This document shows positions 55,691 through 60,265 of a stretch of DNA of 64,000 nt, in pieces. Within the stretch, counting starts at the first letter, position 1. Each line of letters opens with the position of its first letter. Under the pieces are notes generated by a model. That model did not search any database, was not told the DNA's origin, and saw only the letters and a list, made by a program, of their open reading frames with translations. Position numbers and translations under genes: made by a program. Origin of the DNA: Chthonomonas calidirosea T49 (lineage in GTDB: Bacteria; Armatimonadota; Chthonomonadetes; Chthonomonadales; Chthonomonadaceae); NCBI RefSeq assembly GCF_000427095.1, contig NC_021487.1, positions 496,001-560,000 of the forward strand, read 5' to 3'.

Positions 55691-56848
55691 TTAATTCTCC
55701 CGTTTATCGTAAACGATACGCCCCCCTACTATCGTCAGGCGTACCGTTCCCTCTTCATCTAAAACCACTAAGTCGGCATCATAGCCAGGGGCGATGCGCC
55801 CCTTTCGATGATTCAACCCCAAAGCGCATAGGGCGTTATAGGATGACATGCAGGTACGTTTCCGTAAGTCATAGTCTCCTGCATTGGAAAATGCGCGATC
55901 GAGGGTCAATAAGCTGCCGGCTAAAGTTCCATCCGGCAAACGCGCTGCACCGCTAGCTACCACCACGGGTAGATCGCCCAAGGAGAAGGTATATCCATCT
56001 GGCATGCCCGCCCCCGGAATACCGTCGGAAATCAGGATAACCCCGTGTGCTCCCTTTGCCTCTATAATAGCTTTACAAACGGCAGGATGCACATGGATGT
56101 TATCCCAAATCAGCTCTGCCACTAACTCTGATCGGGCGAGTGCAGCCCCCAAAACCCCTGGCTCTCGGCTCTCCATACCACGCATTGCATTGCCACAATG
56201 CGTTACATGACGTGCTCCAAATCCAATAGCCCTATCAACTTCCACATAGGTGGCGTTGGTATGCCCAATAGATACAATAACTCCTGCTGTCGCTAAGATA
56301 CTCATCATCTGTTCCGCACCCGGCAACTCCGGCGCCAGCGTCATGATCCGCACCGTTTCCAAATAGGGCCCAGCCCAACGCAAGAAATCACCACCATCTG
56401 GCTCCAAAATGTACGCTTCGGGCTGTGCCCCCTTTTTCTGCGGATTGATATAAGGCCCCTCAAGATGACAACCGAGAATTTGAGCCCCCTCGTAATCCCC
56501 ACTTTGCATTAGACGAGTGACTACCTCTAAAACGGATGCTAAACGATCTCGAGGGCCGGTGATCGTTGTCGGTAAAAAACTAGTCACTCCATGCTGTGCA
56601 AGATGGTACGAAATTTCCTGTATCGCCTCCTCATCTGCCTCCATTACCGAGCGCCCCGCCCCACCATGAACATGGATATCTACAAACCCTGGAACAAGTC
56701 TCCACCTGCGCACATCCAAGTCCCCCGTTTGCGCTGTGGTCGCATTGTTCCAAGTTTCAACCGAACGGATTCGGCCCTCTTCAAGCGATACAAGAGCATT
56801 TTCCCTAAAGGATAGGGCATCCGCAGCTACGCTCGCCAAAATACGCAT
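55691..56848 (-). CDS. nagA: N-acetylglucosamine-6-phosphate deacetylase
   Basis: A 385-residue amidohydrolase that removes the acetyl group from GlcNAc-6-P in amino-sugar use and wall recycling. The metal-site stretch is VPGFVDIHVHGGAGRSVMEA. Further motifs are GCHLEGPYINPQKKGAQ, SIGHTNATYVEVDRAI, RHVTHCGNAMRGM and ILISDGIPGAGMPDG with the catalytic Asp. ATG 56848 follows AGGAGG by 6 nt; the frame is open much further upstream (to 57049), into the divergent riboswitch. A GntR/LacI-type regulator gene lies 81 nt downstream on the same strand. Confidence 0.93.
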   Translation of the reverse strand: MRILASVAADALSFRENALVSLEEGRIRSVETWNNATTAQTGDLDVRRWRLVPGFVDIHVHGGAGRSVMEADEEAIQEISYHLAQHGVTSFLPTTITGPRDRLASVLEVVTRLMQSGDYEGAQILGCHLEGPYINPQKKGAQPEAYILEPDGGDFLRWAGPYLETVRIMTLAPELPGAEQMMSILATAGVIVSIGHTNATYVEVDRAIGFGARHVTHCGNAMRGMESREPGVLGAALARSELVAELIWDNIHVHPAVCKAIIEAKGAHGVILISDGIPGAGMPDGYTFSLGDLPVVVASGAARLPDGTLAGSLLTLDRAFSNAGDYDLRKRTCMSSYNALCALGLNHRKGRIAPGYDADLVVLDEEGTVRLTIVGGRIVYDKREN

Positions 56849-56899: not shown

Positions 56900-56929
56900 T
56901 TGACAAGTGGAACTCAGATTTAGTATACT
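56900..56929 (+). promoter_or_regulatory. Promoter of the M-box operon
   Basis: TTGACA (56900-56905) and TATACT (56924-56929) are 18 nt apart. Transcription would begin near 56936, about 50 nt before the riboswitch aptamer. It diverges from nagA. Confidence 0.8.
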
Positions 56930-56984
56930 TCGTATGAAAATCTGGCGTAGTCTACTTGGCGCGCCGATAATCGAAAAAGGGAAT

Positions 56985-57204
56985 TCACCTCGATAGGTGA
57001 GGCTCCCGCATACATAGATGCCACTGCCCTTTCGTGTCCAGAGACACAAGGAGGGTTTAACAGGTATTCCCGTTTGAAGGGTCTACCTAACGTGGCTGAG
57101 GCTTTAAGCCTCTAGGGTACGCGGTGCCAAATCTTGAGCGAGTGGGTTGTTGTGGACGTTAGCTTCGAGTACAAAGCCCGCCTCTCGCTCAAAAGGCGGG
57201 CTTT
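56985..57204 (+). promoter_or_regulatory. M-box (ykoK) magnesium riboswitch with expression platform
   Basis: The sequence carries the M-box core: ATAGGTGAGGCTCC at 56993-57006, then ATACATAGATGCC, CTGCCC, and TGTCCAGAGACAC with GGAGGGTTTAACAG up to 57063. These match the Mg2+-sensing riboswitch of B. subtilis mgtE in order and spacing. The 3' closing strand TTGAGCGAG (57134-57142) is exactly complementary to CTCGCTCAA (57184-57192) inside the terminator loop, so aptamer closure and antitermination exclude each other. High Mg2+ should fold the aptamer and allow termination; low Mg2+ should permit expression of the NRAMP-type operon. Recognised from memory of the motif; a covariance search was not run. 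Confidence 0.88.
57173..57204 (+). terminator. Riboswitch-controlled intrinsic terminator
   Basis: AAAGCCCGCCT (57173-57183) and AGGCGGGCTTT (57194-57204) form a perfect 11-bp stem with a 10-nt loop, followed by ATTGCG. The loop contains the strand that pairs with the aptamer's 3' closing strand. Confidence 0.85.
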
Positions 57205-57615
57205 ATTGCGTCGTAAACGTCTTAAAGCCCTTGGCACACGGAGATATCTGTAGCACTATGGATACCAACAGTATCGAGCCTCCGCATGAAGGAGGCAAAG
57301 CACAACTTGGCCGTGTAGCCGACGGAATGCTTCTCTAGCCTCATAGGTTATTACCTGGCACTCCCGCTCGGCTCACGGCAGGGCCGACGGGACGTGCGAG
57401 GTATGTCCTCTCTTCACCTCTACCTCTTGCCCGTCCCTCCTTCTAAAACGCCGCGTGCGCCGCCTTCTAGGCAGGTGACCGCAGTGTGTTACATCTTGCA
57501 TGAATGATTTCTTCCTCCATTCATGCATTCATGTAACACGCGCCTACTCCCGCCTGTTAAGGCAGCGCACGACGGGATAAGATCGACCTCAACTAGCTAG
57601 AGAGGAGGGCGCACT
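57205..57615 (+). other. Long structured leader between riboswitch terminator and operon
   Basis: No credible gene lies here. Several stable hairpins do: GATAC/GTATC (57261-57275), GCCTCC/GGAGGC (57278-57296), a branched stem GCAC...GTGC with inner CCCG/CGGG and CGGC/GCCG (57358-57397), and the very long hairpin at 57486-57539. The segment would only be made when the M-box terminator is bypassed, or from a start site of its own. I do not recognise it as a known riboswitch class. Confidence 0.5.
57486..57539 (+). promoter_or_regulatory. Long two-part hairpin in the operon leader
   Basis: GTGTTACAT (57486-57494) pairs with ATGTAACAC (57531-57539), and inside it GCATGAATG (57498-57506) pairs with CATTCATGC (57518-57526). 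All 18 pairs are perfect, with small internal loops and an 11-nt terminal loop. It lies 76 nt before the first coding start. Without a T-run it is not an obvious terminator. Confidence 0.65.
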
Positions 57616-57849
57616 ATGCTCAAAATGGTCTGGTTTAAGAATGAAATGGGGCAGCTGGTGCCCAAATGGGTGGTTGCCGCAGAGGCACCTCCGCTTACCT
57701 ATCTGTTGGAAGCGTCTCAGCCCCAGCCGATCCATCAGCCCATTCATACCCCCAATCGCGCAAACGACTTGATGGAGACGCAAACGGAAGAACCCGCCGA
57801 ATGGGAACCCTTGAGTCGACCGCAAAACATCGGCATAGCTGCAGTTTAA
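57616..57849 (+). CDS. Small protein in the NRAMP-type operon
   Basis: A 77-residue soluble protein with no recognised family: MLKMVWFKNEMGQLVPKWV at the start, then a Pro- and Gln-rich middle (SQPQPIHQPIHTPN) and an acidic end. The ribosome site GAGGAGGGCGCACT before the ATG is strong. It lies under M-box control, 36 nt ahead of the transporter gene. A role as transporter accessory or in coupling is possible; nothing in the sequence shows it. It could also be a mere leader peptide, but the length and ribosome site favour a real product. Confidence 0.55.
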   Translation: MLKMVWFKNEMGQLVPKWVVAAEAPPLTYLLEASQPQPIHQPIHTPNRANDLMETQTEEPAEWEPLSRPQNIGIAAV

Positions 57850-57885
57850 GCTTAAGGTGAATAACAGCAATGCGAGGACGAGAAA

Positions 57886-59190
57886 ATGACTATTCTTAAA
57901 GAGCAAACAAAAACCAAAGGCCATGTGGTACGTCACCGCTGGCAAAAGGAGCTACTCACCTTTCTTCTCGTGTTTGGGCCTGGGCTTATCGTTATGGAGG
58001 CCGACAATGATGCCGGAGCGGTATCAACCTACACGCAGGCAGGAGCGCAGTATGGAACCCACCTCTTATGGGTACTCCTTCTGCTCCTGCCCATTACCTA
58101 CTTCGTTCAAGAGATGGTAGCACGGCTTGGAATCGCCACCGGTCAAGGCCATGCAGCCATGATCTATCGGCGATTTGGAAAATGGTGGGGGTTCTTCTCC
58201 CTGATGGATCTCCTCATCGTTAATTTTCTAACCATCGTCACTGAGTTTGCAGCGATTGCTCTGGCTTGGGAAAAAATGGGCGTCAGCCCCTATATCGCCG
58301 TACCGGTCTTCGCCATTGGCTTGATCGTGCTAGTTGTTACTGGTCACTACCTGCGATGGGAGCGCCCCACTATCGTTCTCTGCCTACTCGATAGTATCTG
58401 GCTCATTGTCGCAATGCTTTGCCATCCTGTCTCCAAACAAGTTGTCCACGACTCGATCGTACCCAACATTCCGCCCGGAGGCCTCACGTCAAACTTGGTG
58501 TTTCTCGTTATCGCCCTGGTGGGAACAACGATCGCACCGTGGCAGCTCTTCTTCCAACAGTCCTGCGTGGCCGATAAACGCCTTCGCTTCTCCGATCTTA
58601 AATGGGAACGTCTAGACACTTTTCTTGGTGCCTGCTTTACCATTATTGTGGCTGGCTGCATGATGCTTGCCGGCGATGCGGCCTATCGGCACCATATCAA
58701 CTATACGGATCCAGCTCAAATGGCTGTGGCGCTTGGGCCAATTATTGGCCCCTTCGTGAAATACGCCATTCTGTTGCTCATGTGCAATGCTGCCGTTTTA
58801 GGCGCTACCGCAGTCTCTCTTTCTAGCGCATGGGCTTTTGGAGAAGTGAAAGGCTGGAAGCACACCCTCAATGCGACATTTAAGGAAGCGCCAGGCTTTT
58901 ATAGCATCTATGCCATCTGCGTGCTTTTGGCAGCAGGTATCGTCCTCATCCCAGGAGCCCCACTGCAGCTTATCATTATCAGCGTGCAGGTGCTCGCGGG
59001 CATTATGCTCCCTGCCGCCATCGTCTTCCTGCAACTGCTGCTCAACGATCGCGAGCTTTTAGGAGAAGAGTTCACCAATAAGCCTTGGAACAACTGGATC
59101 AACTGGATCATTATCATCCTGTTGTTCGCGCTCTCCTTTATCCTCGCAGCTCAAGTGATCGCACCGAACCTGTTTCCCGCATCGTCCTAA
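57886..59190 (+). CDS. NRAMP-related transporter, probable Mg2+ type (NRMT)
   Basis: A 434-residue membrane protein with about 11 helices of the NRAMP/SLC11 fold. The helix-1 motif DPGN reads DAGA (D42-A45, in EADNDAGAVSTYTQAGAQYG), and the helix-6 MPHN reads APWQ (A217-Q220), so the soft-metal ligand Met and the helix-1 Asn are absent. GAQYG and the other packing motifs are kept. These changes suit a hard ion, as in the NRAMP-related magnesium transporters (NRMT), a group known to be controlled by M-box riboswitches. The M-box upstream supports the same view. Mn2+ or Fe2+ transport is unlikely. It is followed after 29 nt by a small membrane protein. Confidence 0.85.
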   Translation: MTILKEQTKTKGHVVRHRWQKELLTFLLVFGPGLIVMEADNDAGAVSTYTQAGAQYGTHLLWVLLLLLPITYFVQEMVARLGIATGQGHAAMIYRRFGKWWGFFSLMDLLIVNFLTIVTEFAAIALAWEKMGVSPYIAVPVFAIGLIVLVVTGHYLRWERPTIVLCLLDSIWLIVAMLCHPVSKQVVHDSIVPNIPPGGLTSNLVFLVIALVGTTIAPWQLFFQQSCVADKRLRFSDLKWERLDTFLGACFTIIVAGCMMLAGDAAYRHHINYTDPAQMAVALGPIIGPFVKYAILLLMCNAAVLGATAVSLSSAWAFGEVKGWKHTLNATFKEAPGFYSIYAICVLLAAGIVLIPGAPLQLIIISVQVLAGIMLPAAIVFLQLLLNDRELLGEEFTNKPWNNWINWIIIILLFALSFILAAQVIAPNLFPASS

Positions 59191-59219
59191 AAACAATTTA
59201 GTGTCAAGGAGGTTAAAAA

Positions 59220-59456
59220 ATGACCGTGTCTGAACTGAAAAACAATGACAATCTTGTCTACTATGTGGTTCATCCGCTTGAGGATGAACCGGAAGAGAAG
59301 TGCGATCCCGAGAAGGCCGGGCCTATGCCCATGAGCCGCAGCGTGAAGTTCTCTCTGATCACCCTTCGAGCCTACCTGATCATTATGGGGCTGCTGCTGC
59401 TCTATCGCCTTATTGTCCAAATGCACCTCTTCGGCAGCCACGGCCCACATAGCTAG
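59220..59456 (+). CDS. Small single-TM protein after the NRAMP-type transporter
   Basis: A 78-residue protein. The first 45 residues are hydrophilic and acidic (HPLEDEPEEKCDPEKAG), followed by one membrane helix, LRAYLIIMGLLLLYRLIVQMHLF, and a short His-rich tail. The ribosome site AAGGAGGTTAAAAA is strong. It is the last gene of the M-box operon. I see no family match; a regulatory or stabilising subunit of the transporter is an inference from position only. Confidence 0.58.
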   Translation: MTVSELKNNDNLVYYVVHPLEDEPEEKCDPEKAGPMPMSRSVKFSLITLRAYLIIMGLLLLYRLIVQMHLFGSHGPHS

Positions 59457-59462
59457 ATTGCC

Positions 59463-59559
59463 CTCTATCGTCCCGAACAATAACATAAAAAAGTTGGGAT
59501 GTTACCACCTACTGATGTCCTATAGATACCTATGCTTGTAAAAATTCGGGACGATAGAG
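59463..59559. repeat. 15-bp perfect inverted repeat spanning 97 bp
   Basis: CTCTATCGTCCCGAA (59463-59477) and TTCGGGACGATAGAG (59545-59559) are exact inverted copies, 67 nt apart. No coding sequence lies between. There is no obvious target-site duplication. It could be a miniature inverted-repeat element, a long-range RNA stem ending the transporter operon, or a paired binding site. Confidence 0.6.
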
Positions 59560-59623: not shown

Positions 59624-60265
59624 ATGATGAAACGCTTTCAACTCGCATCCTGCCCAATCCTCCTCGGCATCCTCTGCGCCTTAAAACCGCAAGCCCATGC
59701 CGATGTAATCGGGCTTAACCAAATACCAACTCCGCCAACCCACCCCAAAGGCGTACTCAGCATAACCCTCCAAGCTCAAGATGCTCACATCGGTACCCCT
59801 TGGCAGACTCAGTTCGAACTTGGGCTCACAAAAAATTTTTCAATAGACTGGTTCCATAACTTCACTCCCACACAAGAAGATCTAATAAACTTTCAGTATG
59901 CCCTTGTTCAACTCAAAACCGGTTTCACTGTTACCACAGGTCTTCTAAACTGGCCCATCTCCCATGGCGGGCCTCAAGAACTGTTTGAGTTTGGTACCAA
60001 TGCGGGCCGTCAACAATGGGTATTAGGCGCAATATATACAGGGCACAGTACTGAGCCTATCGTCGGCTTTGGGTACCAAATATCCTCGCACTTCACGCTC
60101 ATGCTTGACCACCAAGGTGGAGGGGAAAATGCCAGCACGATCGGTGGCACCTACTACCTCACCCCAAACCTCAGTCTCAATCCGGCTGTCTACATCAGCA
60201 ATCATGGCCACCATCGCCTCTTTCCCTATGCCGTCATCACTTGGAGCGTGCAGCTGTTTAAATAG
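59624..60265 (+). CDS. Exported beta-rich (outer-membrane-like) hypothetical protein
   Basis: A 213-residue protein with a signal peptide (CPILLGILCALKPQAHA, cleavage near residue 26). The mature chain alternates aromatic and small residues in short strands separated by turns (GVLSITLQAQDAH, FELGLTKNFSIDWFHNF, TVTTGLLNWP, PIVGFGYQISSHFTLMLDHQ), and it ends YAVITWSVQLF, with Phe near the C-terminus as in outer-membrane barrels. No named family is seen. Start from AAAGGAGAG. A hairpin follows 20 nt after the stop codon. Confidence 0.6.
   Translation: MMKRFQLASCPILLGILCALKPQAHADVIGLNQIPTPPTHPKGVLSITLQAQDAHIGTPWQTQFELGLTKNFSIDWFHNFTPTQEDLINFQYALVQLKTGFTVTTGLLNWPISHGGPQELFEFGTNAGRQQWVLGAIYTGHSTEPIVGFGYQISSHFTLMLDHQGGGENASTIGGTYYLTPNLSLNPAVYISNHGHHRLFPYAVITWSVQLFK

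Follow-up and report, generated by a model that had tools for sequence, protein, structure and literature searches.

We lean towards reading the operon of an NRMT-type (NRAMP-related) transporter in Chthonomonas calidirosea T49 as a Mg2+-uptake operon whose single leader holds two stacked Mg2+ responses, an M-box riboswitch and, behind it, a proline-stalling attenuator. The attenuator would be built on a short upstream open reading frame (uORF), uORF1, whose X-Pro-Pro motif recurs before related transporters in Armatimonadota, Acidobacteriota and other bacteria. The window, that is, the whole stretch of 64,000 nucleotides analysed, covers positions 496,001 to 560,000 of contig NC_021487.1 on the forward strand, and positions below are counted from its first letter. 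A sequence-only reading of this region had proposed an M-box-controlled NRMT-type transporter, and that interpretation is supported. The pairing of M-box and NRAMP-related transporter, which it called known, has indeed been published (PMC4072509); what is new is the pair of small proteins together with the second leader. The leader and its main target are composed as follows.

56900..56929, + strand: promoter-like site TTGACA-18-TATACT, a candidate from a consensus scan (11/12 matches)
56982..57153, + strand: M-box aptamer RF00380, cmscan 125.6 bits, E 9.3e-28, whole model 1-169
57134..57142, + strand: putative antiterminator strand TTGAGCGAG in the 3' part of the aptamer, by sequence reading
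57173..57207, + strand: predicted intrinsic terminator of the M-box, GCCCGCC...GGCGGGC-TTTATT
57258..57338, + strand: uORF1, leader peptide MDTNSIEPPHEGGKAQLGRVADGMLL, 26 codons; conserved X-Pro-Pro frame with coding test and codon bias
57278..57296, + strand: hairpin GCCTCC-N7-GGAGGC across the Pro-Pro codons, local fold -12.3 kcal/mol, z -2.9
57405..57452, + strand: C-rich, G-poor stretch by sequence count (23 C and 4 G in 48 nucleotides), a candidate Rho-loading site
57486..57539, + strand: long A+T-rich hairpin GTGTTACAT...ATGTAACAC before orfA, from sequence and fold
57886..59190, + strand: NRMT-type transporter, 434 residues, D42xxA45-T214xxA217, Pfam Nramp E 8.6e-70

The second structured leader had been noticed from the letters alone, and it is real: positions 57205-57620 fold at -173.4 kcal/mol against -130.4 (standard deviation 6.5) for 100 shuffles, a z of -6.6. 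The earlier reading had missed the reading frame inside it. uORF1 lies about 50 nucleotides 3' of the terminator, with GGAGA before its start codon and a peptide beginning MDTNSIEPPHEGG. An acidic-polar start leads to Glu-Pro-Pro at codons 7-9 (GAG CCT CCG, 57276-57284), followed by a more basic tail. A search for a second known riboswitch in this leader (cmscan up to E 5) gave nothing credible, and a gathering-threshold scan of 55 loci returned M-boxes and tRNAs only.

Recurrence of the frame was counted in relatives of the transporter. The 291 armatimonad genomes hold 15 close orthologues including the window itself, the other 14 at 63-72% identity, and a scan of genome contigs yielded 80 loci, 43 of them close; with four repeats dropped, this makes 54 close loci overall, of which 52 can be scored (L110 and L112 are truncated). 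These transporters are short-form, with a median C-terminal extension of 1 residue against 93.5 in their long-form relatives. Counting frames of 10-60 codons that contain [EQ]PP and lie at most 730 nucleotides upstream, 39 of the 52 loci carry one, 33 of them with PPS. Control counts stand at 1/48 far upstream, 1/49 downstream, 1/52 on the antisense strand and 40/1040 in shuffled sequence, and distant homologues (<55%) are at background (2/35). One of the 39, at G023, is a chance frame, the true leader of that locus lying at -773, just outside the search range. Together with the K/R variants at L104 and L065, and with L073, where the upstream sequence was too short for the automated count, an [E/Q/K/R]-Pro-Pro-(Ser) frame is present at 42/52 scorable loci. 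All seven further M-box loci in the phylum's subclade have a counterpart at the equivalent position. Examples from M-box loci are MAHSTEPPHLGGVHNLP (G049), MDQSTEPPSCGGISKLP (G050), MDADKQEPPSKHGSKYRHDKR (G033) and MGTGRGEPPSYGGLLQPDVA (G058), and from loci without an M-box MSYDSSSSTDKSQPPSCELDTRGSVLGVWLL (G090) and the acidobacterial MSKESAQEPPSTRRSFLCCDERSDNLL (L071). The two other Nramp paralogues of the window genome have no Pro-Pro uORF upstream.

Comparison among these loci gives good support to the view that uORF1 is translated and retained for its peptide and codons. The coding test took single-base codon differences and compared observed with expected synonymous changes in three frames. 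The ratios for frames 0/+1/+2 are 1.79/0.46/0.86, 2.05/0.88/1.00 and 2.16/0.56/1.05 in groups of 9, 8 and 8 sequences. Codon use was examined in 45 uORFs, 42 from NRMT loci and three from others, and the X of X-Pro-Pro falls at codon 6-9 in 39 of them. For the first Pro, 42 frames use CCT and three CCC, none CCA or CCG, and the next base is C; the second Pro codon is unrestricted (CCG 21, CCC 11, CCT 7, CCA 6). In the transporters of the same loci CCT accounts for 84 of 776 Pro codons. The combination of CC[C/U] with a following C is avoided by genomes, and is slow and frameshift-prone (PMC8129111). Residues before the Pro pair are rich in acidic side chains (96 acidic and 26 basic of 383), those after it in basic ones (48 acidic and 106 basic of 591).

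Many loci also have a hairpin across the Pro codons (mean local z -1.4), so RNA and peptide constraints may coexist. The conserved element could even be the RNA itself, a CCUCC hairpin or anti-Shine-Dalgarno segment hiding a ribosome site or binding a protein, with the reading frame incidental. CCUCC is nearly fixed in nucleotides and in many loci has a GGAGG pairing partner further downstream, and L174 has a compensatory GCCCCC/GGGGGC stem. Yet the synonymous excess appears in the uORF frame only in the three groups, the third base of the second Pro codon is free, the following Ser is written AGT or TCN, and CCT is kept in 10/10 loci whose local fold leaves its third base unpaired. We regard an RNA-only element as distinctly unlikely.

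The stacking on an M-box is evident in the window and in its relatives. The aptamer claimed from the letters proved a strong match in the covariance search, 125.6 bits where the gathering score is 44, and is the sole M-box of the whole genome. A promoter-like site and a predicted terminator, both claimed with it, are likewise present as listed, the terminator stem being followed by a T-rich tail. TTGAGCGAG is exactly complementary over 9 nucleotides to CTCGCTCAA at 57184-57192 inside the terminator, and the predicted layout is the usual M-box OFF-switch platform. Among the 54 close transporter loci 16 have an M-box near upstream (cmscan), and 15 of these carry the uORF, the exception being L086; at L102 an M-box lies about 2.1 kb upstream of the transporter. 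In the short-form subclade 27 uORF loci lack any M-box. Since 15/16 M-box loci carry the uORF and these 27 do without an M-box, the leader is a device in its own right and frequently sits stacked behind an M-box. The completeness of the M-box's own terminator platform, and the description of published NRMT loci with an M-box alone (PMC4072509), would agree with a simpler situation in which only the M-box matters, and regulation here owes little to uORF1, orfA or the second structured region. The retention of the leader in the 27 loci and the strong fold of the second leader speak against this, and we give it little credence.

Within the phylum the uORF is found at 9 of 13 M-box loci and is absent from L002, L004, L005 and L006; a QPP frame of 13 residues 3' of the M-box in L005 was treated as chance. 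No M-box was found in 247 acidobacterial genomes in a survey with stricter filters, which therefore shows only its rarity in that sample, and cmscan of the loci did find M-boxes at other loci labelled acidobacterial. One genome has three M-boxes (L116, L187 and L188, L116 being labelled Alicyclobacillus ferrooxydans), of which at least two immediately precede NRMT genes of the long form.

The leader is not restricted to NRMT genes. At G204 a weak M-box (42.9 bits, just under the gathering score) is followed by MDAGKQEPPSKGGGQNRPWQKR and then by a gene for CorA (Pfam E 3.8e-22). Scanning the 291 genomes for a DNA pattern gave matches in 49, from which in-frame cases were picked by eye; here MEVGEDQPPSRGGSRDTLRSGRD precedes a PRC-MgtE_N-CBS gene (G213), and MDAEYGEPPSTGGQRTSLGRRRRR the genes for a two-domain ABC permease and an ABC ATPase (AAA_assoc_C; G215). 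Eight of the 13 in-frame sites picked stand before transport-related genes (five NRMT, CorA, MgtE_N, ABC). The remaining five have no transport gene: L176, L177 and L180 are short frames with no fitting gene behind them, and L178 and L179 are long ones. L191 is leader-like with an antisense gene downstream and was treated as chance. A fixed pattern run over 247 acidobacterial genomes yielded nine sites, seven of them short frames, of which three precede NRMT genes (one being the known Terriglobus locus), one precedes a permease and three have no fitting gene. The acidobacterial MTIENTQEPPSISTVFLCCVLSPQESL precedes a homologue of the G215 permease (37%, E 7e-56), and a single ABC permease family behind the leader in two phyla, Armatimonadota and Acidobacteriota, is suggestive. 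A chance RPP frame occurs at 2/40 acidobacterial permease loci. A second fixed pattern found 25 sites in 24 of the 291 armatimonad genomes, 15 of them short frames, six of which precede known targets.

The occurrence of a Pro-Pro leader before several unrelated Mg2+-linked genes in distant bacteria suggests a second, ribosome-based Mg2+ sensor. X-Pro-Pro is a general stall motif, and mgtP of Salmonella responds to proline limitation (PMC3641672), so the peptide could instead report charged tRNA-Pro, EF-P activity or osmotic state. The common Mg2+ theme of the downstream genes (NRMT, CorA, MgtE_N) and the presence of the leader at 15/16 subclade loci with a close M-box make a signal other than Mg2+ rather unlikely.

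An inverted repeat like TACCC-N-GGGGGTATGGTA stands just 5' of the leader in several acidobacteria, at L076, L079, L081, L082, L084 and L087 (NRMT) and at L260 (ABC permease); it resembles a CsoR-type operator.

Between uORF and gene lies a spacer of 118-696 nucleotides in which C exceeds G, and in 38/42 loci the best 78-nucleotide C-minus-G window of the spacer outscores that of the coding start. Attenuator-like helices can be seen by eye in some loci: GCCGTGA/TCACGGC in G048, G049 and G050, and GCCATGA/TCATGGC in G032 and G033. A general attenuator helix between the uORF tail and a downstream segment is weak over the 45 loci and is not claimed.

Drawing on these features and on the enterobacterial precedent, we propose that uORF1 could sense Mg2+ and attenuate transcription as follows. 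At high Mg2+ the M-box would fold, and the terminator at 57173-57207 would halt transcription. At low Mg2+ the 3' strand of the aptamer would pair with the terminator, and RNA polymerase would continue and make uORF1. The ribosome would then slow at CCU-CCN, since TrmD depends on Mg2+ for the m1G37 methylation of tRNA-Pro; as an alternative or added cause, nascent chains of acidic residues and Pro may make the ribosome unstable, in the manner of enterobacterial MgtL. The position of the ribosome on the CCUCC/GGAGG hairpin would set the fold of the next ~280 nucleotides, a structured and C-rich stretch, and that fold would decide whether Rho terminates the transcript ahead of orfA and the transporter. 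The output would be the NRMT-type transporter together with orfB, probably its detached last transmembrane helix. Taken further, and only tentatively, the leader may represent a class of Mg2+-sensing leader peptides independent of MgtL, characterized by an acidic start, X-Pro-Pro and an obligatory CC[U/C]-C, and acting via m1G37-tRNA-Pro. Such a class would be portable across NRMT, CorA and MgtE_N genes and stacked behind M-boxes, and would mark the two-domain ABC permease family as a candidate Mg2+ transporter so far unrecognised.

The transporter itself sides with NRMT-type proteins, not with classical NRAMPs. The motifs read from its translation are as claimed (D42-A-G-A45 and T214-T-I-A217-P-W-Q), and its best solved relative is 7qia (EleNRMT; E 1.5e-61, the next at 1.5e-16). 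With truncated members excluded from tree and motif count, FastTree joins 49 close short-form proteins in one clade with a support of 0.83; a second clade, with 0.999, unites 37 long-form proteins at 44-49% identity, most of them labelled actinobacterial. All 49 short-form members have DAGA in helix 1 and TT[IV]AP in helix 6, whereas 36 of the 37 long-form proteins have DAGG. The published NRMT consensus is DxxG-TxxA/T (PMC8806188). TxxA is present, and Ala takes the place of the Gly of DxxG in the window protein and throughout the 49 members, so that the window protein is a DxxA variant; we file it with a variant subclade that would work like NRMT, not as a canonical NRMT. In favour of Mg2+ as substrate are the M-box, the loss of the Met ligand, the place of EleNRMT as nearest solved protein and the link to Mg2+ among the other genes behind the leader.

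Several observations weigh against the stacked Mg2+-responsive leader or parts of it. Ten of the 52 scorable loci lack the uORF (the armatimonads G025, G078 and G094, and L070, L086, L089, L093, L095, L097 and L102), and the counts overstate independence because the loci are related. The uORF1 of the window reads PPH instead of PPS. In a fourth group tested for coding (L083, L084, L088 and L094; 24 differences) the synonymous ratio is 0.35 in frame 0 and 2.0 in +1. Long-range pairing is weak, with a mean z of -0.62 against -0.12 in the control, and reaches a level matched by at most 10 of 200 shuffles in 7/45 loci against 1/45. The window scan lists no intrinsic terminator on the + strand 3' of uORF1. 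An EPPS uORF occurs at only 3/40 acidobacterial ABC-permease loci (L250, L260 and L261), so the permease link is suggestive, not general. The EPDP motif that MgtL carries near its start is absent, X-Pro-Pro standing at codons 7-9 instead. As to the substrate, the NrmT of Acidobacterium capsulatum, which has no M-box, rescued a Mn2+-uptake mutant (PMC4072509), and a 42% relative, G026, has an MntR-type regulator upstream by eye; the transporter might then carry mainly Mn2+, its link to Mg2+ being indirect. M-box control, the lack of a soft Met ligand and the nearest solved protein, EleNRMT, argue otherwise. The A. capsulatum gene, moreover, follows an MgtE_N gene, an arrangement confirmed here in the long-form clade only (L106 and L107), and the ion site of G026 differs (DGPS, ATVT). 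We consider a mainly Mn2+-carrying protein improbable. The upstream gene of G026 (L058) looks DtxR/MntR-like, and a small one-helix frame lies downstream in an orfB-like position.

The two small reading frames called around the transporter are present and conserved; with a third frame further downstream they are:

57616..57849, + strand: orfA, 77 residues, N-terminal MLxMxW-x5-GxLxxxW; recurrence and synonymous excess
59220..59456, + strand: orfB, 78 residues, one predicted transmembrane helix; matches the last transmembrane segment of long-form homologues
59624..60265, + strand: orfC, 213 residues, signal-like start, predicted beta-rich, operon membership uncertain; one homologue (37%) in the same place in G047

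The N-terminus of orfA is common to 7 of the 15 armatimonad loci (the window and six others), while the tails diverge. Its synonymous excess is 1.76 in its own frame against 1.15 and 0.83 in the others, it has no match in Pfam or NCBIfam, and by these comparisons we take it to be a small translated protein. At L047 (G025), which has no M-box, a frame 5' of orfA resembles MgtC/SapB by eye. orfB follows the transporter directly in 14/15 armatimonad loci by motif, G078 having a similar frame, and is present in nearly all other short-form loci; no match was found at L088, L094 and L103 (contig ends) or at L100. One transmembrane helix is predicted in the 48 of 49 family members that pass a hydropathy cut. 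The last segment of the long-form proteins, within the extension that short-form proteins lack, matches orfB (hhalign probability 94.1, E 1.2e-7, 37 columns), and orfB is therefore probably the split-off last transmembrane helix of the transporter.

Between orfB and orfC lies a perfect 15-bp inverted repeat, CTCTATCGTCCCGAA / TTCGGGACGATAGAG, at 59463-59477 and 59545-59559 with a 67-nucleotide loop, perhaps the operon end or a processing site. orfC is possibly an outer-membrane protein; its modelled fold (mean pLDDT 38.9) was too uncertain to support a fold search. A gene for an OprB-type porin lies 3' of the transporter in 8 of 10 tested short-form loci (L065, L067, L068, L069, L073, L099, L104 and L112), and a porin or a beta-rich orfC in the same place could provide an outer-membrane route for the same ion. 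Divergent from the M-box promoter lies the gene for NagA, N-acetylglucosamine-6-phosphate deacetylase (55691-56848, - strand; NCBIfam TIGR00221, E 5.6e-82).

If the proposal is true, ribosome-based Mg2+ sensing via Pro codons recurs in distant phyla and is no enterobacterial speciality, and can act on top of a riboswitch that responds to the same ion. With a codon rule of CC[U/C]-C that excludes CCA and CCG, the hypothesis of sensing through tRNA m1G37 can be tested directly in organisms other than Salmonella. The leader also serves as a searchable tag for Mg2+-related genes, which already points to the ABC family, and orfB suggests that a helix of a transporter can have a small gene of its own.

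Parts of this arrangement have counterparts in known systems. Clostridium acetobutylicum likewise has an M-box and an intrinsic terminator before an NRAMP-related transporter, NrmT (PMC4072509); the window adds the X-Pro-Pro uORF, orfA and orfB, has DxxA in place of DxxG, and lacks an adjacent MgtE_N gene. EleNRMT of Eggerthella lenta (PDB 7qia) shares the fold family, the replacement of Met by Ala and TxxA, and differs in having DxxG (PMC8806188). In Mycobacterium tuberculosis pe20, too, an M-box is followed by a conserved uORF, with Rho-dependent termination; that system has a translational platform, a genus-specific peptide and a PE/PPE target, and the accessible part of its description proposes no Pro-Pro stall (PMC12810186). 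Salmonella mgtP of mgtCBR is likewise a Pro-rich uORF in a tandem attenuator leader, with three consecutive Pro codons and a response to proline (PMC3641672). Our literature search recognised no description of the present X-Pro-Pro leader, subscription papers and supplements lying outside it. The closest parallel is enterobacterial mgtA, where fast translation of the leader frame exposes a rut site and Rho stops transcription, and where at low Mg2+ slow reading of CC[C/U] (the methylase TrmD being Mg2+-dependent) or drop-off at EPDP sustains it (PMC6335274, PMC11282234). Both leaders have a short uORF with early acidic residues and CC[C/U]-type Pro codons (the first Pro codon being CCT or CCC in 45/45 here) before a Mg2+ transporter, and in both the uORF is combined with other Mg2+ control (PMC11282234, PMC6335274). 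The present leader differs in occurring in other phyla and behind an M-box, and a role of Rho would here be by analogy. It thus appears to work like MgtL without being a member of the MgtL type, and we rate it as MgtL-like in logic, with no visible sequence relation to MgtL, and stacked on an M-box.

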